A DNA stretch of 64,000 nt from NCBI GenBank assembly GCA_905479735.1, contig CAJQNS010000010.1:1-64000 (forward strand), given 5' to 3'. The DNA comes from an uncultured Desulfofustis sp. Its GTDB lineage: Bacteria > Desulfobacterota > Desulfobulbia > Desulfobulbales > Desulfocapsaceae. Numbering within the stretch: position 1 is the stretch's first letter; each line of letters opens with the position of its first letter. A model generated the notes under the pieces. The model saw only the letters and a program-made list of their open reading frames with translations. It ran no database searches and had not been told where the DNA came from. Shown piece by piece: positions 18,269 to 31,141 of this stretch. The translations under genes and the position numbers were made by a program.

Positions 18269-19141
18269 TTACTCGTAGACTTCTTTGCAGAGTCTTCCCA
18301 GAGTACCGAGATCGCGACAGACATAGATACCAGCAGCCTCCATTGCCTCGATCTTGGCGGCTGCAGTGCCTGAACCGCCGCTGACGATGGCTCCGGCATG
18401 CCCCATTCTTCTGCCCGGAGGTGCGGTCAGACCGGCAATGAAACCCACCACAGGTTTACTCATATGGGCTTTGATCCAGGCAGCGGCTTCCTCTTCTGCG
18501 CTGCCGCCGATTTCACCGACCATTACCACCGCCTTGGTGTGGGCATCGGCTTCGAATGCTTCAAGGCAATCGATAAAGCCAGTTCCGTTTACGGGATCTC
18601 CGCCGATCCCCACACAGGTCGTCTGACCGAATCCTTCCTGGCTGAGCTGATGAACCACTTCATAGGTCAGGGTGCCTGAGCGGGAAACCACTCCAAAAGG
18701 GCCTCCCTCCTGGTGAATTGAGGCAGGCATAATGCCGATCTTGCAGGCCCCAGGGGTAATAATCCCGGGACAGTTAGGTCCGATGAGCCGGCTGCTCGTG
18801 GTAGCCAGGTAATTCTTGACCCGGAGCATATCCATGACGGGGATGCCTTCGGTGATACAGACTATCAGCTCTATGCCGGCATCGGCCGCTTCGAGAATCG
18901 CCTCAGCTGCAAAGGGTGGCGGAACAAATATCATCGAAGTATTGGCGCCGGTTGCCTGGCGCGCTTCGTGGACAGAATTGAAAACGTCCACTTCATCCAT
19001 TTTCTGGCCGCCCTTTCCCGGGGTGACACCAGCGACCACATTGGTTCCATAAGCAATGCACTGCCTGGTGTGAAACTGTCCTTCCTGGCCGGTGATGCCC
19101 TGCACAATCAAGCGAGTCGAACTGTCTGCAAAAATAGCCAT
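18269..19141 (-). CDS. sucD: Succinyl-CoA synthetase alpha subunit
   Basis: Forms succinyl-CoA synthetase with SucC, converting succinyl-CoA, ADP or GDP and phosphate to succinate and a nucleoside triphosphate. This is the substrate-level phosphorylation step of propionate oxidation. The CoA-binding Rossmann motif ([15 protein letters not shown], residues 13-27) and the phosphohistidine loop (RRMGHAGAI, His at about 248) are intact. Length 290 residues is normal. Unusually, it is separated from sucC by the GlpQ-like gene at 19166-20335, with a 24-base gap to that gene. Confidence 0.97.
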
Positions 19142-19165: not shown

Positions 19166-20335
19166 TTACCTGGTTGTATCCGATTCAATCGGGTACGGCG
19201 GCTTGCTGCCGCTTTTCTCGACCCGATCAATCAGACGTTCTATTGTATTATTCTGTTCGTAACTGGGGGGCGCCATTCGATTGTCTAGCCAGTCCCGCGC
19301 CAAACGGTCTTGGTCAGTGACAATACCGTCAAAACCGATGGTAAACAGCAGGTGTTCAAACAGCGCTTCCGGTCCTGAACCTTGCGGCGCGAAACCGGGA
19401 GGGATTGAATCCACCCGACAGCAGACAATCTGCAGCCCCAGAGTGTGTGCATCATCGAGGAATTGTGGGCGGTTGAGAGCAGCTGAATCATCCATGACCG
19501 CCTGGGGGTCCAAGCCGATACTGTCGGCATAGCTCGACACCGATTTGAGACCGAATCGGGTAAACAGCAGATCGTAGCTGTAGGGTTGAAAGGTACCAAA
19601 TTCGAGCCGTTGTACTTCTTCACCGTTATTACTTCCGATAAGCTGCATGAAGCCGATATCCTCTGCCTGTCCGGCTCCTCTGCCCAGAGCGAGCTGCTGC
19701 AGTTCCTCTGGGTCGTAGGAAGCAATTACCACAGAAGCGTTGGCCTTGGTTGACTGGTAGTCTTCAAGTGTTTGCAGGACAATGGCTCCCAGGTTTTTGT
19801 CTTGCTGTTGATGCAGCCAGCCGTGCTTCAAGGTGCAAATGAGGGTGGGCCTGGCAGCGAGCTCGGTGAAAACAATATCCAGGTAGCCTAAGAAGTCATC
19901 AAGAGCCGTAACAGGCAGGTGTGACCGGAACAGCGAATTGGCGCTAACGGTTCCCGCAGGCGCAACCGGTAGATGAGATAAGCCACGTAATTCCTCAAGG
20001 GTAAAGTCGAAACTGTAGTAGCTGCCGTCTGGACGAGATCGATCGGGGTAAATCTCTTTGACATCGGTCAGTTGGTCGATTTTGGTATCGGCCAGCAGGA
20101 CGATCTGATTGTCTTTGGATAAGACCAGATCAAGCCATACAGTTTCAGCCCCTCGTTCCAGGGCTAGCGCCAGGGAGAGCAAGCTGCCGGACGGCAGATT
20201 TGCGCTACTGCCGCTGCTGATTATCCATTTCGCCTGGTTGGTGGCGATACCGTTTCCGGTCTCAGCCATAATTGGCAGACCAGGGAAGCCCAGCACAACC
20301 AGCAGGATCAGCGTCTGGATAAAGCCCCTACCCAT
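19166..20335 (-). CDS. Exported GlpQ-like protein with catalytic residues replaced
   Basis: A 389-residue protein with a signal peptide (cleavage near PIMA-ETG) and clear overall similarity to periplasmic glycerophosphodiester phosphodiesterase GlpQ. The TDVKEIYPDRSRPDGSYY block (about 90-107), FDFTLEELRGL (109-119), a 'K..W.H' strand (170-175) and the terminal DGIVTD match. Residues needed for catalysis are changed. The HRG position reads SSG (about 40-42), the metal-binding Glu is Trp67 (WLD), the HD histidine is Ala82, and the Glu of 'PEIK' is Thr168. It is probably not an active phosphodiesterase. It begins 10 bases after sucC with an AAAGG ribosome site, so it is translated from the suc mRNA. 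Confidence 0.82.
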   Translation of the reverse strand: MGRGFIQTLILLVVLGFPGLPIMAETGNGIATNQAKWIISSGSSANLPSGSLLSLALALERGAETVWLDLVLSKDNQIVLLADTKIDQLTDVKEIYPDRSRPDGSYYSFDFTLEELRGLSHLPVAPAGTVSANSLFRSHLPVTALDDFLGYLDIVFTELAARPTLICTLKHGWLHQQQDKNLGAIVLQTLEDYQSTKANASVVIASYDPEELQQLALGRGAGQAEDIGFMQLIGSNNGEEVQRLEFGTFQPYSYDLLFTRFGLKSVSSYADSIGLDPQAVMDDSAALNRPQFLDDAHTLGLQIVCCRVDSIPPGFAPQGSGPEALFEHLLFTIGFDGIVTDQDRLARDWLDNRMAPPSYEQNNTIERLIDRVEKSGSKPPYPIESDTTR

Positions 20336-20345
20336 GATTAACCTT

Positions 20346-21506
20346 TTAGCTGCCGCTGATGGCGGCCACCTTCTCTGCGGCGTCTGAGAGGGTCACCGCG
20401 TTGATCAGATCCAGCCCCGAATCGGCTAGAATCCTGCGTCCTTCTTCGACGTTGGTACCTTCCATTCGGACCACCACGGGAACCTCGAGACCAATCGACT
20501 GGGCGGCTTGAACCACGCCCTGGGCAAGCACATCGCAGCGTAAAATGCCGCCGAAAATGTTGATCAATATGCCTTTGACATTGGGGTCGCTGAGGATGAT
20601 TCGAAAACCGTTTTCGACTTTCTCGGCATCGGCGCCGCCGCCTACATCAAGGAAATTTGCCGGCTCCGCCCCTGCCTGCTTGATGATATCCATGGTGGCC
20701 ATGGCCAGTCCGGCACCGTTTACCATGTTGCCAATGGTTCCATCGAGTTTGATGTAGTTCAGGTCGTATTTGGCCGCCTCAAGTTCGTTGGGGTCCTCTT
20801 CGAGCGGATCCCGCATAGCAGCGATGTCCTTGTGCCGGTAAAGCGCATTGGAGTCGATATCGATTTTGGCGTCCAGGGCGATTATTTCGTCTTCTTCGGT
20901 GATGATTAAAGGGTTTATTTCCAGCAGAGAACAGTCGGCATTGGTGAAGAGCCGGTAGAGATTTCTCAACATCGCCCCGCATTTCTTGGCAACCGCAGGT
21001 TCGAGTGCCAATCCCAGACAGACAAGGCGAACATGATAACCCTGGATGCCAAGCAGCGGGTTGATGCCGACCTTTATGATGCGCTCGGGTGTGGCGGCGG
21101 CAACTTCTTCGATATCCATGCCTCCGTCCCGGCTGGCCATGATGGTGACGGTGGCGTCATCTCGATTGACGATAAAAGAGAGATAAAGCTCGTTTTTGAT
21201 AGATACGCCTTCCTCGGCCAGCACTTTGTTAACAGTTCTGCCTTCTGCTCCAGTCTGCAGAGTGACGAGTTTCATACCAAGAATTGCCTCTGCCGCTTCT
21301 CTTGCTTCTTCAGGAGTTCGAGCTACCCGGACTCCACCGCCCTTGCCGCGGCCTCCGGCATGAACCTGGGCCTTGACTGCCAGTGGCAGCCCCAGCTGCT
21401 CGACCGCCTGGTCTATGGCCTCCGGTGCTTCGCATAAGACTCCGGCCGGCACGGGAATGTCATACGATCTGAATAGTTCCTTTGCCTGGTATTCATGGAT
21501 TTTCAT
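20346..21506 (-). CDS. sucC: Succinyl-CoA synthetase beta subunit
   Basis: Nucleotide-grasp subunit that partners SucD. The 386-residue chain starts with the standard [12 protein letters not shown] and carries the ATP-grasp glycine loop ([15 protein letters not shown]), the metal-binding LEINPLI segment and the C-terminal [11 protein letters not shown] and [11 protein letters not shown] motifs. The nucleotide preference (ATP or GTP) cannot be told by eye. It is the first gene of the suc operon. A perfect inverted repeat lies 30 bases before its ATG and a hairpin separates it from prpE. Confidence 0.97.
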
Positions 21507-21637: not shown

Positions 21638-23533
21638 TTATTTGGGTGGGTATCCCATTTCGTTCAAAGATTCGGTAATTTCATCGAGAATCGTCGGGTC
21701 GTCGATGGTGGAGGGCATGCGGTATTCCTTGCCGGCGGCAATTGAGCGCATGGTTCCGCGCAGAATCTTGCCCGACCTGGTTTTCGGCAGCCTTGCCACG
21801 CAACTGGACTCGCGGAAGCAGGCAATAGCGCCGATTTTTTCTCTTACCATCTTGACCAGTTCGGTCTGGATTTCCTCCACGTCCCTGTCCACGCCAGATT
21901 TGAGGACGAAGAGGCCAACAGGCAACTGCCCTTTGAGTTGATCATCGGTACCGATGACAGCGCACTCGGCGATATCGGGATGGGTGGCGATAACCTCTTC
22001 CATGGCCCCGGTGGAGAGGCGGTGGCCAGCGATGTTGATGACATCGTCCATACGGCCCATGACATAGACATAGTCGTCCTCGTCAATATATCCGCCGTCA
22101 CTGGTTTCGTAGTAGCCGGGAAAGGTGGACATGTAGGATTCGATAAACCGTTTTTCGTTCTTCCATAGAGTGGGCAGGGTTCCCGGCGGCAACGGTAGTT
22201 TAATAACGATATTGCCTTCGGTGTTGGGACCAACTTCATTGCCCTCGTCATCGAGGACCATGACGTTGTAGCCTGGCACTGCCGTGGTCGGTGACCCCGC
22301 CTTGACCGGCAGCTCTTCGATACCGCGGCAGTTGGCAACGATTGCCCAACCGGTTTCAGTCTGCCACCAGTGATCGATGACCGGTACTTTGAGCAGGTTT
22401 GAAGCCCAGAAATAGGTGTCTGGATCGAGCCGTTCGCCAGCCAGGTAAAGACACTCGAAGCAGGAAATGTCATACTTGCCGATAAATACGCCGTCAGGAT
22501 CTTCCTTCTTAATGGCCCGGAAGGCGGTAGGGGCGGTGAACAGCGATTTGACCTGGTGTTCTGAGATGAGGCGCCAGAACGCTCCGGCATCCGGGGTGCC
22601 AATGGGTTTACCTTCATAGAAAACCGTAGTTGCTCCTTTGAGCAATGGACCGTAGACGATATAGGAGTGACCGACCACCCAGCCGACGTCGGAGGCCGAC
22701 CACCACACATCGCCGGCATCAATGTCGTAAATTGCCTTCATACTCCAGTGCAGCGACACCGCATGGCCGCCGTTGTCGCGAATGACTCCTTTGGGCATGC
22801 CGGTGGTACCGGAAGTGTAAAGAATGTAAAGTGGATCGGTGGCCTCGACCGGAACGCAGTCGGCCAGAGGAGCGTCGGAAACGAAATCGCTCCAGTCTAG
22901 ATCGCGACCTTCCTGCATATCAGATTGCAGAAACGGGCGCTGAAAGAGTACGACTTTTTCAATTTTGTGGTCGGCGATTTCAATGGCTTCGTCGACGATG
23001 GGTTTGTAGGCCAGTGTCTTGGCGCCTTCGATGGCTCCAGAGGCGGTGATGATAATTTTGGGTTCAGCGTGGTTGATCCTGATGGCCAGCTCGTTGGCAG
23101 CGAAACCGCCGAAAACCACTGAATGGATAGCTCCAAGTCTGGCACAGGCGAGCATCGCATAGGCTGCCTCAAGAATCATCGGCATGTAGATGATGACCGT
23201 ATCGCCTTTGGTGATGCCGATTGACTGCAGGGCCCCGGCAAGTTGGGCCACTTTTTGCTGAAGTTCCTTATAGGTTACCTTGGTAATGGTGTCGGTAACC
23301 GGACTGTCGTGGATGATGGCGACCTGGTCCCCTCGGCCGCCCTCAACATGGCGATCGATCGCATTGTAGCAAGTGTTCATTTTGGCGCCGGGAAACCAGC
23401 GGTAAAAGGGAGGATTGGAATCGTCGAGCACTTTGTCCCATTTCTGGTACCAGTCGATTCCTTCTGCAGCTTCAGCCCAGAATCCTTCCGGGTTTTCAAC
23501 ACTTTTTGCAAAGACGTCTTTATAATTCGCCAT
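21638..23533 (-). CDS. prpE: Propionyl-CoA synthetase (AMP-forming)
   Basis: Activates propionate, and more slowly acetate, with ATP and CoA to the acyl-CoA via an acyl-adenylate. The 631-residue protein has the adenylation motif YTSGTTGMPKGV (240-250), the acyl-pocket/hinge region (VIDHWWQTETGW) and the C-terminal catalytic Lys motif RSGKILRGTMR. The N-terminus and overall pattern favour PrpE over Acs. An upstream in-frame ATG at 23545 exists, but GAGGTGG sits just before the ATG at 23533, so that start is used. It begins the minus-strand propionate block and supplies propionyl-CoA to the transcarboxylase encoded downstream. Confidence 0.92.
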   Translation of the reverse strand: MANYKDVFAKSVENPEGFWAEAAEGIDWYQKWDKVLDDSNPPFYRWFPGAKMNTCYNAIDRHVEGGRGDQVAIIHDSPVTDTITKVTYKELQQKVAQLAGALQSIGITKGDTVIIYMPMILEAAYAMLACARLGAIHSVVFGGFAANELAIRINHAEPKIIITASGAIEGAKTLAYKPIVDEAIEIADHKIEKVVLFQRPFLQSDMQEGRDLDWSDFVSDAPLADCVPVEATDPLYILYTSGTTGMPKGVIRDNGGHAVSLHWSMKAIYDIDAGDVWWSASDVGWVVGHSYIVYGPLLKGATTVFYEGKPIGTPDAGAFWRLISEHQVKSLFTAPTAFRAIKKEDPDGVFIGKYDISCFECLYLAGERLDPDTYFWASNLLKVPVIDHWWQTETGWAIVANCRGIEELPVKAGSPTTAVPGYNVMVLDDEGNEVGPNTEGNIVIKLPLPPGTLPTLWKNEKRFIESYMSTFPGYYETSDGGYIDEDDYVYVMGRMDDVINIAGHRLSTGAMEEVIATHPDIAECAVIGTDDQLKGQLPVGLFVLKSGVDRDVEEIQTELVKMVREKIGAIACFRESSCVARLPKTRSGKILRGTMRSIAAGKEYRMPSTIDDPTILDEITESLNEMGYPPK

Positions 23534-23921
23534 GTTCCACCTCATATTAAGGTTAGTGGGTTGTGATGGTTTTAACGCTTGTTACATCCGTTACAGGCCT
23601 CCTGATCAGTAAAAAAATCGCTATGACCCAACCACATATACTAAATATTTACAAGGACTTCAAGTCTTTGGGCAAAAAACAATTACCACGGTGTGATTGT
23701 TGGAAAAGTTCTGTAATACAAGTGATCTATGAAAAAAAAAGAACATTGTTCTGGTCTGTTGATAGGTCAGGAGAGCAGGACTGTGCCTCAGTTCTTGTAA
23801 GGTTTCGGAACAGATTGATGAAAACCTCAATCTAGCAGTGTGTACTTATACGAATGACAGAAAAACCAGTTTGTTATGCCAATCACTTCTCTTCAAAAGA
23901 GCAGGAAAAATCGATCTTAGA
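23534..23921. other. 388-base gene-free leader of prpE
   Basis: AT-rich stretch between yrfG and prpE. It holds the element shared with mmdA (23737-23752) and several A or T runs. A weak minus-strand promoter candidate, TTGAAG (23658-23663) and TATATG (23635-23640) with a 17-base spacer, would give a leader of about 95 bases. I see no RNA gene or protein gene in it. Confidence 0.5.
23737..23752. promoter_or_regulatory. Element AAAAGAACATTGTTCT upstream of prpE
   Basis: It contains the 14-base sequence also found upstream of mmdA, here extended to the inverted repeat AGAACA-T-TGTTCT. It lies about 205 bases before the prpE start. The repeated occurrence in front of two propionate transcription units suggests a common regulator. 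Whether it represses or activates here is not clear. Confidence 0.5.
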
Positions 23922-23933
23922 TCAGTTTTTCCT
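23903..23933 (-). terminator. Hairpin overlapping the yrfG stop
   Basis: AGGAAAAA (23903-23910) and TTTTTCCT (23926-23933) with inner GATC/GATC arms form an imperfect hairpin around the yrfG stop codon. On the minus strand a TTTTTCCT tail follows. It is a plausible weak terminator for the mfd-yrfG transcript. Confidence 0.4.
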
Positions 23934-24629
23934 GGCACCGATGGAATCCGCAAACGGAGTTAGCAACTCGTCAAAGGCGCCTACTGAGGTGAACTCGTCA
24001 CAGTAGCTGGTCGGTTGCCGAGAGCTTGGCTTGGCGATATGCAGCAAATATCTGATACCGTGGCTGCGGGCCGCTCTGAGGACATTGACATTGTCGTCAA
24101 CGAACAGGGTGTGATCCCGCTCGAAGCCAAGTTTTTCTTCAAGGATGCCCCAGAACTGGGCATCCTCTTTGGGTCTGCCCAGTTCCTCGGCACAGATCAA
24201 ATCTTGGAAGTAGTTTCGCAGATCAACCTTGTTCATTTTTATATCCAGCGCAGAGCGGTGGGCAGCGGTTACCAGATAGACTGATTTGGACTGGCTTTGG
24301 AGAAACTGGAGAAAGTCAATGACGTGTGGATTTACGCTGATCAAATGATCAACCTGTTTTTTCAGACCGACAATATCGAGCTCGAGTTCTTTTGACCAGT
24401 AATTCAAGTCCGTCCACATCAGGGTTTTCTCGACCGATCGATAACGATGAAAGAGCTCCTCTTGGGCCGCTTTTTCGTTGAGGCCCTTCTGTTTTCCATA
24501 GACCAGCGGGAGAAACTGCTCCCAAAAATAATCATCATAATATTTGTCCAGTAAGGTGCCGTCCATATCGAGCAGCACGGTGCTGATTTGCTGCCACCTC
24601 AGAGGGGGATTCAATTCTTTATTGTACAT
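23922..24629 (-). CDS. yrfG: HAD-family GMP/IMP 5'-nucleotidase (YrfG-like)
   Basis: A haloacid-dehalogenase-type phosphatase of 235 residues with the nucleophile motif LLDMDGTLLD (Asp21, Asp23), a helical cap containing a D-x-x-Y-F-W segment, the motif II Thr (LVTAAH), Lys in RPKED and the final acidic motif FVDDN. The D-x-Y-x-x-x-F-W cap and overall length match E. coli YrfG, which dephosphorylates purine nucleotides. Substrate is inferred from family only. Its start overlaps the mfd stop by 11 bases, which implies translational coupling. Confidence 0.82.
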   Translation of the reverse strand: MYNKELNPPLRWQQISTVLLDMDGTLLDKYYDDYFWEQFLPLVYGKQKGLNEKAAQEELFHRYRSVEKTLMWTDLNYWSKELELDIVGLKKQVDHLISVNPHVIDFLQFLQSQSKSVYLVTAAHRSALDIKMNKVDLRNYFQDLICAEELGRPKEDAQFWGILEEKLGFERDHTLFVDDNVNVLRAARSHGIRYLLHIAKPSSRQPTSYCDEFTSVGAFDELLTPFADSIGARKN

Positions 24630-27600
24630 GTTCTTCGGTCAGCTTGTGAAATTGGGCGATTATCCGTTCAATCTTCTCAAAAAGCTTGGTGTCAGTTTCC
24701 TGGTCCGCCGCCACGATCAACCGTCCATCCGGTGTCAAACGCAGTGTGCTGGAGTTTCCAGCCACCAGTGGCAGCATTAGTTCCGGTTTGACGGGAGTAT
24801 CGGTCATGAAAGAAAAAACCAGATTGCCTGGTCCCCTCTCAAGTTTTTCGATTCTCAGTGGAATCAATGCTTTTTTGATGGCTACTACCTCGAAAAGATT
24901 AATCACTTCATCGGGCAGTGTACCGTAGCGGTCTGTCAGTTCTGCGCGCAGGTCTGCACTTTCCTCAACACTGTTATGGCTCTGTTGGGCTATGCGCCGG
25001 TACATGATATAACGCTGTTCGATATCGGCGATGTAGCTTTCAGGTATATAGGCCGAAACCTTGAGATGGATCTCTGGATCGATATCGTCGGACAGGCCGG
25101 CGGGGCCGTCGCCGCTTTTTTGCGCCTTGAGATCGGAGACTGTTTTTTGGAGCAGATCGAGATAGAGATCGTAACCGATGGCAGCGATGTGGCCGCTTTG
25201 CGAAACGCCGAGGAGATTTCCCCCACCTCGTATCTGCAGATCGGACATGGCCAGTTTAAAGCCGCCGCCCAACTCATTATATTCCATCAGCGCCTTGAGC
25301 CGCTCCCTCGAATCCTTGGAGAGATGATCGACAGAAGGGACCAGCAGATAGGCGAACGACTGGGTTGAGCTGCGACCCACCCGGCCGCGCAGCTGGTATA
25401 TCTCGGCCAGCCCGAGACGGTCGGCTCTGTTGATGATGATGGTGTTGGCGCTGGGAATGTCGAGCCCCGATTCGATAATGGTGGTGCTGATCAACACGTC
25501 GATTTTATTGTTGACGAAGGCCACCATGATATCCTCGAGTTCTTTGCCGGCCATCTGACCGTGGGCTGCTGCAATTCGGGCCTGGGGCGCGAGTTTTTGT
25601 ACGGTCTGGGCCATCCGGTGAATTGATTTGACCCTGTTGTGGACGACAAAAACCTGACCGCCCCTCAAGAGCTCACGATTGACCGCCTCTTTGATAACCA
25701 GGTCGTCGTAGCGGGCCACAAATGTTTTAACCGGCCGCCGGTGCTCAGGCGGAGTGGAAATTACGGAAAGATCACGAATACCGAGTAGTGAGAGCTGCAA
25801 GGTTCTGGGGATCGGGGTTGCGGTCAGGGTCAACACATCTACTTCGGCCTTTATCCGTTTGATTTTCTCTTTGTGGGCAACACCGAAGCGGTGTTCTTCA
25901 TCAATGATCAGCAGCCCGAGGTTGCCAAAGCGAACGTCATTGGAGAGCAGTCGGTGGGTACCGATAACGATATCGATCGATGAATCTGTCAAGCCGGCGA
26001 TGATCTCTTTCTGTTCCTTCTGGGATCTGAAACGGTTGAGACAGGCGATCCTGACCGGGAAGTCTTTGAGCCGTTCCCTGAAAGTCTTGACATGTTGTTC
26101 CGCCAGCACCGTGGTCGGTACCAGGATGGCAACCTGACATGAGTCCTCGACAACCTTGAAGGCGGCCCTGACAGCCACTTCAGTTTTTCCATAGCCAACG
26201 TCACCGCAGATCAGTCTGTCCATAGGCTGGGCAGTGGTGAGGTCGGTGATGGTATCGTTGATGGCCTGGTATTGACCTGGGGTCTCATCGTATGAAAATG
26301 ATTCTTCAAGTTCCTTGAAAAATTCTCCCGGAGGCGAGAATGCCCTGCCGCTGCGAATCTCTCTCTGGGCGTAGATGTCGAGGAGCTCCTGGGCCACTTT
26401 CCAGACCTCGTCGGACACTTTCTGTTTGGTGGTCTTCCAGGACTGGCTGCCGAGTCTGTCGATTTTGGGCACTTTATCGGAGAGCCCTTCATAGCGGCTG
26501 ACAAGGTTGAGACGGTCAACCGGTACATAAAGTTTGTCGCCGTCGCGGTATTCGAGCAGGAGATAATCGTTGGTGATCCGCTGCAGCTCGATGGTCTCCA
26601 GACCACGGTAGATGCCCAGGCCATGCTCCCGGTGAACGACTACATCTCCCTGTTGCAGCTGGGCAAAAGAAATCGGTTCGCCGACAGCCTTTTGGGTTCG
26701 TTTCTTGTAACCGATTCTTCTCTCGCCGAACAGTTCGCTTTCCGAGATCAGATGCAGCCGTTTCTCTTCCAGACTGAAGCCGCTTTGAAGCGGGTATTCG
26801 CAGAGATAAATGCAACGCCCCTCCTGCGGTTCCAAGCGATCCAGATCAAGCGGCGGGGTAAGCAGCTCAAATGAGAAATCGAATCTGCTCAATAGCTCAG
26901 CCAGATTTTTACAGCGTTGGGCCGAGCGGCAGCAGATCACCACCAAGTCTGATCGTTCGAGCCAGTTGTCTATATTGGAGGCGAGAACCTTGAGCAGACC
27001 GTGCTGCTTTCTGCTATAGGCTATTTCCTGTTTAAGCAGTTGATGGTTGCTCGTCCTGACGGACAGGGCTGTCCCTTCATCGGCGGAAAAATCGGTGATC
27101 CCAAACTGCTCGAATTTTTCCAGATAGCCGCTCAGCTGATCTTCCATCACAAAAAGATCATCGGGGGGAAGACATGGCTGTCTGTTTTCAACACCGCTTG
27201 CATAATTGGCCGCGATTCGTTCGTGTATGAGTTTGGCCTGGCCGCTTATCGCCTCCGGTTCGATAATCAGCAGACCACTGTTGTCGGGTAAAAAATCAAG
27301 TACAGTGGCGCTTGTTTCGGCTCCACAGAAAAGGGGCAGGAAAAATTCGATACCGGCGAAGCGACGACCGCTTCTGATCCGCTCAGCCAGTTCGTGAGAT
27401 TTTTCAGACGACCAGCCGCTGTTCTCCGACAGCTCAAGCCACTGGTTGCTGAGCTTGCGTAAACCGGACTCATCATCAACCGGCAGCAGCGCGTCACTGA
27501 CCGGTAGGATCACCGCTTCCTCACATCGGCCCTGCGAACGCTGGTTGAGAGGGTCGAAAGGTTTAATGGACTCGATGAAATCTCCAAAAAAATCGAGTCG

Positions 27601-28149
27601 GATGGGACTGTCCAGAAGTGACCCGTCAGGAAGATAAAAAGGAGGTGGATAGATATCGACGACCCCACCTCTGACTGAGAAATCACCATAGCTTTTCACC
27701 AGAGACACCGATTCATAGCCCATGGTGACAAGAGAAGTCTGCAGATCGGAGAGGTCACATTCCTCACCCTCCATAATCAGCTCCGCCTGATTCTGCAGTA
27801 CCGTTTTGCCCATGACCCGGCGCAACAGTGCTTCTATGGAAATGACCAGGATAAATGGATCGTTGCTCTGGGTCAGGTGAAACAGGGTTGAAATCCTTGA
27901 GGCTGTTGTGTGCTGGTCAGGGGAAAGCGGTGTATAGGGAGGTATCTCATAACCAGGATAGGAGATGACCGGACGGTCTGCAAACAACATAAGATCGCGC
28001 TCCAGTCCATCTGTCATCTGTTCGTCAGGTACGATGCAGCAGACAGGCCTGTCGGGAGCGCTGGTTGCACAGAACCAGGCAACCGCAGATCCTCGCAGAC
28101 CGCTGATGATACGGGCGTCCTGGTTAAGTAATGGTGAGAGTAAGGTCAT
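24619..28149 (-). CDS. mfd: Transcription-repair coupling factor
   Basis: Removes RNA polymerase stalled at lesions and recruits UvrA. The 1176-residue protein has the UvrB-like N-terminal module (SGLRGSAVAWF, TPLSPDQHTTASR), the RNA-polymerase-interaction domain (GDVVVHREHGLGIYRGLETI), a RecG-like translocase with Walker A GDVGYGKTE around residue 650 and DEEHRFGV, and the C-terminal regulatory domain. All parts seem intact. The start codon is odd: eight T plus one C lie directly before it, these T being the tail of the bamA terminator, so no ribosome site is present. The N-terminus nevertheless fits the family. Confidence 0.96.
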   Translation of the reverse strand: MTLLSPLLNQDARIISGLRGSAVAWFCATSAPDRPVCCIVPDEQMTDGLERDLMLFADRPVISYPGYEIPPYTPLSPDQHTTASRISTLFHLTQSNDPFILVISIEALLRRVMGKTVLQNQAELIMEGEECDLSDLQTSLVTMGYESVSLVKSYGDFSVRGGVVDIYPPPFYLPDGSLLDSPIRLDFFGDFIESIKPFDPLNQRSQGRCEEAVILPVSDALLPVDDESGLRKLSNQWLELSENSGWSSEKSHELAERIRSGRRFAGIEFFLPLFCGAETSATVLDFLPDNSGLLIIEPEAISGQAKLIHERIAANYASGVENRQPCLPPDDLFVMEDQLSGYLEKFEQFGITDFSADEGTALSVRTSNHQLLKQEIAYSRKQHGLLKVLASNIDNWLERSDLVVICCRSAQRCKNLAELLSRFDFSFELLTPPLDLDRLEPQEGRCIYLCEYPLQSGFSLEEKRLHLISESELFGERRIGYKKRTQKAVGEPISFAQLQQGDVVVHREHGLGIYRGLETIELQRITNDYLLLEYRDGDKLYVPVDRLNLVSRYEGLSDKVPKIDRLGSQSWKTTKQKVSDEVWKVAQELLDIYAQREIRSGRAFSPPGEFFKELEESFSYDETPGQYQAINDTITDLTTAQPMDRLICGDVGYGKTEVAVRAAFKVVEDSCQVAILVPTTVLAEQHVKTFRERLKDFPVRIACLNRFRSQKEQKEIIAGLTDSSIDIVIGTHRLLSNDVRFGNLGLLIIDEEHRFGVAHKEKIKRIKAEVDVLTLTATPIPRTLQLSLLGIRDLSVISTPPEHRRPVKTFVARYDDLVIKEAVNRELLRGGQVFVVHNRVKSIHRMAQTVQKLAPQARIAAAHGQMAGKELEDIMVAFVNNKIDVLISTTIIESGLDIPSANTIIINRADRLGLAEIYQLRGRVGRSSTQSFAYLLVPSVDHLSKDSRERLKALMEYNELGGGFKLAMSDLQIRGGGNLLGVSQSGHIAAIGYDLYLDLLQKTVSDLKAQKSGDGPAGLSDDIDPEIHLKVSAYIPESYIADIEQRYIMYRRIAQQSHNSVEESADLRAELTDRYGTLPDEVINLFEVVAIKKALIPLRIEKLERGPGNLVFSFMTDTPVKPELMLPLVAGNSSTLRLTPDGRLIVAADQETDTKLFEKIERIIAQFHKLTEEHVQ

Positions 28150-28150
28150 G

Positions 28151-28184
28151 AAAAAAAAGCGCCGGCTGCAGTAATGCAGCCGGC
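28151..28184 (-). terminator. Strong intrinsic terminator after bamA
   Basis: GCCGGCTGCA (28161-28170) and TGCAGCCGGC (28175-28184) form a perfect stem with a four-base loop. On the minus strand it is followed by GC and eight T (28151-28158). It starts 31 bases after the bamA stop, and its T tract ends one base before the mfd ATG. Confidence 0.9.
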
Positions 28185-28215
28185 ACCTGATGTTGAATAA
28201 TTCGGGGAATCCGTA

Positions 28216-30903
28216 TCAGAACGACCCTCCAATGCTGAAATCCCAAACACTTGTGTCTTCATCCTCCAGCGGATCGGGATTGTAACCCCAGACCAACCGC
28301 AGAGGCCCCATCGGGGAAAGCCAGCGAATCTCAAGACCGGTGCCGACGGCAACGTCGGCGCTGTCCCAATCGACTTCTGTGGCAATGGAGTCGCCGGCAT
28401 CCAGAAAGATCACCCCGTAAAAGCCCTGATCCTTGAGAAGAGGCACCACGATTTCAGTATTGACATACCACATCTGATCACCGCCGACCCGGTCTCCGGT
28501 AAGCGGATCGATCGGACTGACCTTACCGAATTCGTGCCCTCTGATTGTATTGATGCCGCCCAGATAGAAGCGTTCGTAGACCGGCAGTTTTCCGGTCTCA
28601 TTTTCCCAGGCCTGGCCGGCAGCACCAAGGACATGAAAGACCGTGCCGTAGACGATTGGAAAATACCAGCTCGAATTGACTTCGCCTTTGGTAAACTGGG
28701 AATCACCGCCAAGTGGTCCACCGGCGTATTTGACGGACAACGAATTTCTCGAACCTTCAGTGGCGCCGTAGAGACGATCTCTGGAGTCTCTGACGAAGGA
28801 GACTTTGACCGCAGAGGTAACGGGCACATTCTGAGATTCCCTGATAATAAAGGAAGCATCATCGGCCACGTCGGTCAACTCGGTATCGGTATAACTGTAT
28901 GCCTCAAACATACGCCACTTTTCCCAGAGAGGATGGCCGAAGCGGATGGCGCCACCTTTGGAATCCTTGGTATAATCATCAAATTCCCGGGTCCAGTTAA
29001 ACAGATCTACACCTGTTGATACCTTAGAATCGTTGATTCTGGGGTTGGTCCAACTCAAATTAAACCTGCTGCTCTTGCCGCCGATGTTAGCGGCCAACGA
29101 TAATCGGTGGCCCATGCCCAGAAAGTTGTTCTCGGATATCTCGCCCATCAGGATAACGCTGTCCACCGAAGAATAGCCTGCACCGATACTGAACTGGCCG
29201 GTACTTTTTTCTTTGACATCGACCGTGACATTCATCTTGGAGGGGTCCAGCGCCGGATCAGGTGTTATGTTGACCTCTTCGAAAAAATCGACTCGCTGCA
29301 AATTTCTGGAACTGTCCCTTATTCCTTTGGTATTGAAGACACCGCCCTCGGCAATCTCCAGTTCGCGCCGGATTACATTGTCACGGGTTCTGGTATTGCC
29401 TCGAATGGCGATTCTGTTGATATAGACTAGATCACCCCGTTCGATACTGAGCGAGATGTCGACCCGTGAGCCCGACTCGGATATGTCCATCATGGGTCGG
29501 ACTTCGGCAAAGGCATAACCCTGTTCGGCATAGTAATCCTGGAGCCTCAAGATGTCGTCGCGCAGAGTTTTGCGGCTCAAATATTCTTCGCTTCGAATAG
29601 CAAGCATATCCAGGAAAACTTCCTTGTCGGCAATGAGATCACCCTCGAGGCTAACGGTGCCTACCTTGAAGCGGGGACCTTCCTCAATTATAAATTTTAC
29701 ATAAAGCCATTCCTCTTCCTGAGTAATTATCGGTTCGCCGACCTTGGCCTCAAGATAGCCGTTGTTGTTGTAGAAGGCGACAATTCTGGCTGAATCCTGT
29801 TCAAGCAAATCCCGGTTGAGCAGCCCCGATTCGGTCAGCCAGGAGAGGAACCCTTTGGTCGAAGTTTCAATGACATCCTCGAGATCGCCACTGTCAAAAC
29901 TGCTGTTGCCCTCGAAACCGATCTCCTTGATGTAGATCTTCTCTCCTTCTTCAATAACGAAACGAACGGCAGCGGTCTCGGGAGTTGGGTAACTGATATT
30001 GGGGGTGACGGTTGTATTGTAATAACCTTTCGACTTATACAACGTCATTATTGCCGCCGCCGCCTCGTTGACCCGGGCCGGGTTGAGAATCGAATTTTCC
30101 TTTATGCCGACTACTTCTGTGACATCGTCGTCATCCAGTTCATCGATACCCGAGTAACTGATTGAAGAAATAGCCGGTTTTTCGACAACTCTGAAAGTTA
30201 CTATTTTGCCGCTGTCACCATCTTTGACGTCGATCTGAACGTCATCGAAATAACCCATCGTGTAGATGGCTTTAAGGTCATCGCGCAAGATTGCAGGGTC
30301 GTAAACATCACCGACTTTGGACTGGATCTTTCTGAGGATCGCTCCGGAGTCGATGCGAGTATTGCCGTCAGGGGCAATGACCCCGATGAACTGGTCTCGT
30401 TCCGCATAGGTGATGACCTCGTCCATCACCTGATCGATAATCAGTCCGAGTTCCGCAATCGATCCGGCTTCTTTGTAGAAATATTTGGGATTTTCCGGGT
30501 CGAGCACATCGTAGACTTTGACATCGATACTTATCTGACTGCCGATGATAGTGACTGACCCGGCGGCAACACTGTCTAAACCTGTGGCTTTAGCAATTGA
30601 GTCAAGAGCCTCGGTTCCGGGTGGCCATTTATCGTAATCCACCAGATCTTCTGCGAGGGCCCGGTCCAGCATCTGAAAATCATTGCGCAGCAGTACCTTG
30701 GTAAGGTTGTCGTCAACCTTTGCGGTTAGGCTCTCGTCAACGCTCTGGGCAATGATCTGAAAGGGCAGAAAGGCGGTGTTCTGATCGACTGCTGAGGCAG
30801 GTGCAGCCACAAAGAAGGCCATTACCCAACAGCAAACAGCAGCGGAGAGAAAGAGACGATATGCGGATGGATAAATCCTCGAGAAATTTCTGGGTGCGGT
30901 CAT
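28216..30903 (-). CDS. bamA: Outer-membrane protein assembly factor BamA
   Basis: Essential Omp85-family insertase that folds beta-barrel proteins into the outer membrane. After a signal peptide (AVCCWVMAFFVAAPASA) there is an extended N-terminal region, then POTRA repeats (for example FRVVEKPAISSISYSGI, GEKIYIKEIGFEGNSSF, RGDLVYINRIAIRGNTRTRD) and a C-terminal 16-strand barrel with the VRGF-like loop IRGHEFG and a final aromatic (IGGSF). From the chosen start it has 895 residues, longer than E. coli BamA because of the N-terminal segment. The longer frame to 30990 is not used because AAGGAAC sits before the ATG at 30903. It stands alone, with no skp or lpx genes beside it. Confidence 0.95.
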   Translation of the reverse strand: MTAPRNFSRIYPSAYRLFLSAAVCCWVMAFFVAAPASAVDQNTAFLPFQIIAQSVDESLTAKVDDNLTKVLLRNDFQMLDRALAEDLVDYDKWPPGTEALDSIAKATGLDSVAAGSVTIIGSQISIDVKVYDVLDPENPKYFYKEAGSIAELGLIIDQVMDEVITYAERDQFIGVIAPDGNTRIDSGAILRKIQSKVGDVYDPAILRDDLKAIYTMGYFDDVQIDVKDGDSGKIVTFRVVEKPAISSISYSGIDELDDDDVTEVVGIKENSILNPARVNEAAAAIMTLYKSKGYYNTTVTPNISYPTPETAAVRFVIEEGEKIYIKEIGFEGNSSFDSGDLEDVIETSTKGFLSWLTESGLLNRDLLEQDSARIVAFYNNNGYLEAKVGEPIITQEEEWLYVKFIIEEGPRFKVGTVSLEGDLIADKEVFLDMLAIRSEEYLSRKTLRDDILRLQDYYAEQGYAFAEVRPMMDISESGSRVDISLSIERGDLVYINRIAIRGNTRTRDNVIRRELEIAEGGVFNTKGIRDSSRNLQRVDFFEEVNITPDPALDPSKMNVTVDVKEKSTGQFSIGAGYSSVDSVILMGEISENNFLGMGHRLSLAANIGGKSSRFNLSWTNPRINDSKVSTGVDLFNWTREFDDYTKDSKGGAIRFGHPLWEKWRMFEAYSYTDTELTDVADDASFIIRESQNVPVTSAVKVSFVRDSRDRLYGATEGSRNSLSVKYAGGPLGGDSQFTKGEVNSSWYFPIVYGTVFHVLGAAGQAWENETGKLPVYERFYLGGINTIRGHEFGKVSPIDPLTGDRVGGDQMWYVNTEIVVPLLKDQGFYGVIFLDAGDSIATEVDWDSADVAVGTGLEIRWLSPMGPLRLVWGYNPDPLEDEDTSVWDFSIGGSF

Positions 30904-31141
30904 GTGCTGTTCCTTTCGCAGTAAACGATTTTCAGCAATATCAGCTTGATAATCAAATGAAAATATAAAAGAGAACCTGAAAAAAAACATTATGCCATGT
31001 TTGCTGAAAAATGCAACGCGGGGGACGTCCAGCTAAGTCATAAACGATAGCTGAGAATTCCACACTATTTGGCGTGCGGGTTGACGAATTGACAACGCTG
31101 ACAGTGACGGAGCGCGCGGTATGAATGGAGGGAGAAATCAT

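Follow-up and report, generated by a model that had tools for sequence, protein, structure and literature searches.

A GlpQ-fold pseudoenzyme encoded between sucC and sucD in Desulfocapsaceae

Why should a gene for an exported protein lie between the genes for the two subunits of succinyl-CoA synthetase, and what would such a protein be retained for once its active site was lost? These questions are raised by a 64,000-nucleotide stretch of DNA from an uncultured Desulfofustis sp., which is referred to here as the window. All of the genes described lie on its minus strand. The sucC (beta subunit, 20346..21506) and sucD (alpha subunit, 18269..19141) genes both matched the domains expected of them, and the gene between them (19166..20335; 389 amino acids, ATG start) encodes a GlpQ-like protein. 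Its start codon is located 10 nt past the sucC stop, with an AAAGG overlapping the sucC stop codon, and its own stop is 24 nt ahead of the sucD ATG. Upstream of sucC are acs, encoding an AMP-forming acyl-CoA synthetase by sequence (21638..23545), a HAD-like hydrolase gene (23922..24629), an mfd-like transcription-repair coupling factor gene (24619..28149), and a bamA-like outer-membrane assembly gene read from the sequence (28216..30990). The order is bamA-mfd-HAD-acs-sucC-GDPD-sucD, in which an mfd-HAD string and an acs-sucC-GDPD-sucD string are merged. No structured RNA was found in the region with Rfam. A preliminary description of this DNA had proposed an exported GlpQ-fold pseudoenzyme, perhaps retained as a binding protein whose expression is linked to that of succinyl-CoA synthetase.

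Fold, export signal, and catalytic residues of the window protein

The window protein matched the Pfam GDPD model (PF03009) with 61.3 bits against a cut-off of 23.6 (E value of 2e-16), which places it in the superfamily, and E. coli GlpQ (1ydy) aligned with it over residues 26 to 341 (phmmer, 8e-31). Its score against the NCBIfam equivalog NF008354, 146.6 bits, was below the cut-off of 254. An AlphaFold model computed from the window protein and 23 homologues had a mean pLDDT of 81 and a pTM of 0.77. Its best PDB matches with Foldseek were 1t8q (E. coli GlpQ; E value of 4e-25, TM score of 0.83 by target length) and 8cwp (Haemophilus influenzae protein D), indicating that the predicted fold is a GDPD-type TIM barrel. 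The full-length fold and the export signal are shared with E. coli GlpQ (26% identity in structural alignment), as are Y252, W173, and the GDPD insertion segment running from F96-P97-x-R99-x-R101-x-D103-G104 to D110-F111.

A probable signal peptide, residues 1 to about 24 (MGRGFIQTLILLVVLGFPGLPIMA, followed by E; 20264..20335), was read from the sequence as a hydrophobic N-terminus, and residues 1 to 33 of the model have a pLDDT below 50. Hydrophobic export-type N-termini of this kind recur across the family, as judged from a simple hydropathy scan and by eye. At the other end, a C-terminal tail follows the barrel (residues 356 to 389; 19166..19270), with a predicted helix at residues 360 to 375 and a remainder that is Pro-rich or variable. 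The tail motif QxxxIERLIE recurs among Desulfofustis-like genera. The IERLIE helix was considered as a specially constrained motif and rejected, as its conservation is above average yet it lies outside the most conserved segments of the clade.

GDPD chemistry requires two histidines, a substrate-contacting arginine and lysine, and three acidic metal ligands (PMC4926365, PMC10404611), and active members carry the motif HR...EN...ExD...HD with two catalytic histidines (PMC4926365). In the alignment, the catalytic His-Arg site of the window protein is occupied by Ser-Ser (codons 40 and 41, 20213..20218); depending on the choice of alignment, the HR of HRG corresponds to S40-S41 or to S41 plus a one-residue gap. 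Trp stands at the first metal-binding Glu of ExD (codon 67, 20135..20137), Ala at the second catalytic His (codon 82, 20090..20092), and Thr at the third metal ligand Glu (codon 168, 19832..19834). The same four changes had been listed in the preliminary description, and the alignment agrees with each of them. D69 still supplies the metal Asp of ExD, and K170 the Lys of EIK. One of the three acidic metal ligands is kept (W67, D69, T168), and the HR...ExD...HD motif reads S-S, W-x-D, and A-D. The window protein differs from E. coli GlpQ in lacking HR, the first metal Glu, the second His, and the third metal Glu. In the alignment, HRG and ExD are both present in protein D of H. influenzae, also an exported GlpQ fold, whereas the window protein has neither. 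As a homologue without essential catalytic residues, the window protein is a pseudoenzyme, and from these residues it is expected to be catalytically inactive.

Distribution and active-site loss within the family

Homologues were present in 42 of 97 relatives, all from the window's own family, with open frames and no internal stops, and were absent from all 37 genomes of other families of the order. The named loci belong to Desulfofustis sp., Desulfofustis glycolicus DSM 9705, Desulfocapsa sp., and unclassified Desulfobulbaceae records, pointing to Desulfocapsaceae. At the phylum level (395 genomes, E value of 1e-20), the matches were limited to family members and a single distant homologue, whose HRG and HE/ExD-type motif are intact. 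The gene directly follows sucC for 23 nonidentical proteins from genera g1, g3, g6, g7, g9, g10, g12, and g16. It is followed by sucD in 22 of these 23 loci (seven genera); the g16 contig ends inside the GDPD gene. Spacing across the sucC-linked loci is -4 to +15 nt (once 27) after sucC and 3 to 26 nt (once 84) before sucD. The sucC-GDPD-sucD order is also present in the isolate D. glycolicus DSM 9705 (L083). An assembly or binning artefact is ruled out, since the arrangement is seen in many independent assemblies including that of the isolate. What was proposed for the window holds well beyond it: a full-length pseudoenzyme with a GlpQ fold and an export signal, whose position between sucC and sucD and active-site loss are conserved over seven genera, with an eighth at a contig end.

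The nearest relatives outside the pseudoenzyme clade are GlpQ-type proteins of g5, in the same family, with the full catalytic set (L008, L009, L012, and others). They share the signal peptide and the QLI-x-x-N-x-G-x-E and YNYDW segments with the pseudoenzymes but have the catalytic His pair, ExD, and the third Glu, and their genes are in another neighborhood, not by sucCD or mfd. In L102 and L103, the intact g5 gene lies between genes for a speA-like arginine decarboxylase and a metallo-beta-lactamase-like hydrolase. The window's own genome has two further GDPD genes with intact HRG, ExD, and HD, one of them encoding a membrane domain and the other lacking a signal peptide.

The full core set of five residues was found in none of the 42 aligned pseudoenzymes, which have lost two to four of the five. 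Nor did any of the 23 sucC-linked proteins, where an intact homologue would have spoken against the preliminary description, retain the set: H1, R, E1, and H2 are kept in none, D1 in 65%, and E2 in 74%. Over the 42 pseudoenzymes, the median retention was 0.12 for the five core positions versus 0.52 for other positions invariant in active proteins; the active proteins compared are few and mostly from one genus. The lower core retention has a one-sided p of 0.006, which is indicative, as the rows are related. The scaffold, by comparison, is well kept: E115, Q231, and G262 in all pseudoenzymes, and D75, R99, D110, D208, E211, and Y252 in 90 to 98%. Twelve positions invariant in active proteins carry a new majority residue in the pseudoenzymes (among them Leu for Q68, Phe for H304, and Phe for Y318), several of the changes being from polar to hydrophobic. 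Such new majority residues are what changed, and not merely absent, constraint would be expected to produce.

The kept fold and the twelve new majority residues would also suit a protein that is still an enzyme, with an active site rebuilt for a different reaction, and so would some mfd-linked copies, above all in g14 and g15, in which E, H, and E remain at three core positions and only the other two of the five are lost. This is nevertheless unlikely, as pocket residues vary widely within the clade (S, N, D, Q, E, G, K, R, A, or W at the H1 position and S, G, R, D, P, Q, H, or A at the H2 position), there is no new conserved polar set, and three of the core places in the window copy are filled by W, A, and T. 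These statements on pocket and surface rest on alignment to GlpQ and not on model coordinates. Among sucC-linked proteins, Asp and the third Glu are kept together in 9 of the 11 with Lys at the first metal Glu and in 0 of the 12 without it. This covariation of positions 67, 69, and 168 has a Fisher p of 7e-5, inflated by shared ancestry, and most of the Lys rows are from g7. It hints that Lys may take the place of the metal in those copies and that more of the site may have been lost in the lineage of the window.

Gene order and the link to succinyl-CoA synthetase

In g2, g8, g13, g14, and g15, the pseudoenzyme gene directly follows mfd-HAD, the HAD gene adjoining it, and sucC-sucD lies elsewhere. 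At these mfd-linked loci, the HAD ORF was not called in two cases, and a bamA-like C-terminal fragment is often found upstream of mfd. Adjacency of mfd and HAD, with mfd upstream, is itself widespread in Desulfocapsaceae, and the outgroup families checked have HAD without an adjoining mfd (the corresponding window region is 23922-30990). Loci with sucC-sucD and no GDPD gene are common in the family, even within one genus (G009 of g6). Across the family, acs is found upstream of sucC whether the GDPD gene is present or absent, and among the loci checked that lack the GDPD gene this is so in nearly all. Both G009 and g18 have the order mfd-HAD-acs-sucC-sucD; no GDPD remnant was seen in G009, where only the sucC and sucD ends were matched. 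In two genomes of g7 and g10, mfd-HAD lies about 17 to 20 kb from sucC-GDPD-sucD on the same strand. Put most simply, the GDPD gene has long neighbored both strings, and either linkage can go while the protein stays. Several g13 genomes and one g2 genome (G016, G029, G034, and G046) have two or three sucC copies, and such extra copies could account for acs-sucC and sucD moving away from the GDPD gene.

The pseudoenzyme persists in five genera away from sucCD, and its function therefore needs no linkage to succinyl-CoA synthetase. Thus, retention on account of expression tied to this enzyme is not supported as it was put forward, and functional dependence on sucCD is weakened by the mfd-HAD-linked copies. 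A more specific form of the idea holds that the protein binds glycerophosphodiesters or some related small ligand and that its expression is deliberately coupled to that of succinyl-CoA synthetase. It could draw on the tight spacing on both sides of the gene and on the Lys copies, where Asp and Glu kept in 9 of 11 would fit a salt bridge replacing the metal. However, phosphate in GDPDs is held by His, Arg, and the metal ligands (PMC4926365, PMC10404611), and these are gone; the window copy lacks the Lys too, and sucCD without the GDPD gene is common. We consider this form improbable. What the locus does illustrate is that an unrelated exported protein can occupy the operon of a heteromeric cytoplasmic enzyme over long evolutionary times.

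Descent, selection, and probable role

A tree was rooted with E. coli GlpQ and the distant active homologue as outgroups, and three very long rows were omitted from it. The 39 pseudoenzymes that remained fall into a single clade (support of 98/97.9), apart from the active g5 clade and both outgroups. Three changes of label are needed to accommodate the sucC-linked rows in this tree, although the AU test does not clearly reject their forming a single clade (p of 0.0545). The g7 and g10 sucC-linked groups branch first, at a weak fork (84/49); such early branching would make the sucC-GDPD-sucD order old.

The dN/dS values of pseudoenzyme pairs with usable dS were 0.07 to 0.27 (Nei-Gojobori counts), compared with 0.06 to 0.08 for the active g5 proteins and about 0.01 to 0.16 for sucC and sucD; some pairs have a dS above 1, so that single values are rough, and all are far below 1. 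Identity between the window and its nearest relative was 63% for the pseudoenzyme, 92% for sucC, and 96% for sucD. Since dN/dS is far below 1 and identity is lower than that of the neighbors, the pseudoenzyme gene is selected but less constrained than they are, and the constraint is moderate. Relaxed selection, which would have counted against the preliminary description, was likewise not seen. A decaying former glpQ whose loss is still pending might account for the fast divergence, the scattered absences (g4, g11, g17, g18, and G009), and the idiosyncratic active sites. Such decay is very unlikely, being contradicted by frames that are open in 42 of 42 genomes with a match and by the dN/dS values, as well as by the recurrent hydrophobic export-type N-terminus and persistence in many genera since one ancestral loss. 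Because the genes are intact and dN/dS is 0.07 to 0.27, the protein is very probably a retained pseudoenzyme and not a decaying one.

The retained pseudoenzyme is probably a family-specific periplasmic protein that uses the GlpQ fold in a noncatalytic scaffold or binding role. An ancestral periplasmic glycerophosphodiester phosphodiesterase would have lost the catalytic His pair and the metal site, while its fold, its export signal, and two accessory segments persisted, presumably under purifying selection ever since. The exported protein may then work without catalysis, as a protein-protein or ligand-binding scaffold in the periplasm. This role would use surfaces retained from GlpQ (residues about 92 to 119 and about 231 to 275) and not the old phosphodiester pocket, several polar positions of which appear to have turned hydrophobic. 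A place in sucCD may provide steady expression with the acs-sucC-sucD operon, and the linkage would be an inherited gene order, not a functional requirement. A bolder version is doubtful: that catalysis disappeared from the GlpQ fold a single time, at the root of Desulfocapsaceae and at or close to its insertion between sucC and sucD, and that the protein then served this family as a dedicated envelope protein with a newly gained binding function, a Lys-Asp-Glu triad occupying the metal site in Desulfocapsa-type copies.

The GDPD fold is used outside simple phosphodiester turnover in the plant GDPD-like (SHV3) proteins, which are eukaryotic and GPI anchored. They provide a precedent for noncanonical GDPD folds, and their genomic context is unrelated to that of the window gene. 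Searches of the literature for GDPD/GlpQ pseudoenzymes, Desulfocapsa GDPD, and genes between sucC and sucD found nothing relevant; subscription papers were mostly outside these searches, which are not proof of novelty. Pseudoenzymes are already known as a kind, and what appears new is that an exported one of GlpQ type is encoded within sucCD across a family. In this clear example, a whole family has preserved the fold of an exported enzyme and given up its chemistry, and the full-set relatives in the same family make the step from enzyme to pseudoenzyme open to direct study.

Three further observations were made among the homologues. In g14 and g15, the mfd-linked pseudoenzyme gene is followed by a short gene for a glycine-zipper lipoprotein resembling the 17-kDa antigen (loci with a lipoprotein gene downstream of the GDPD gene are L078, L088, L098, L099, L100, L101, L104, and L105), and its product might be an envelope partner. 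Seven loci, L117, L118, L119, L120, L121, L122, and L123 (Desulfocapsa-type g7 and one g14), score above the curated NF008354 cut-off. Those members that were aligned here lack both catalytic His (G180 of g7 was outside the alignment), and automatic annotation of these copies as active phosphodiesterases is likely wrong. Finally, L069:4226-5212, from a MAG labeled Desulfocapsa sulfexigens, groups with the active g5 proteins, yet Ser and Arg occupy the places of its two catalytic histidines; this points to activity having been lost a second time, independently of the main clade.
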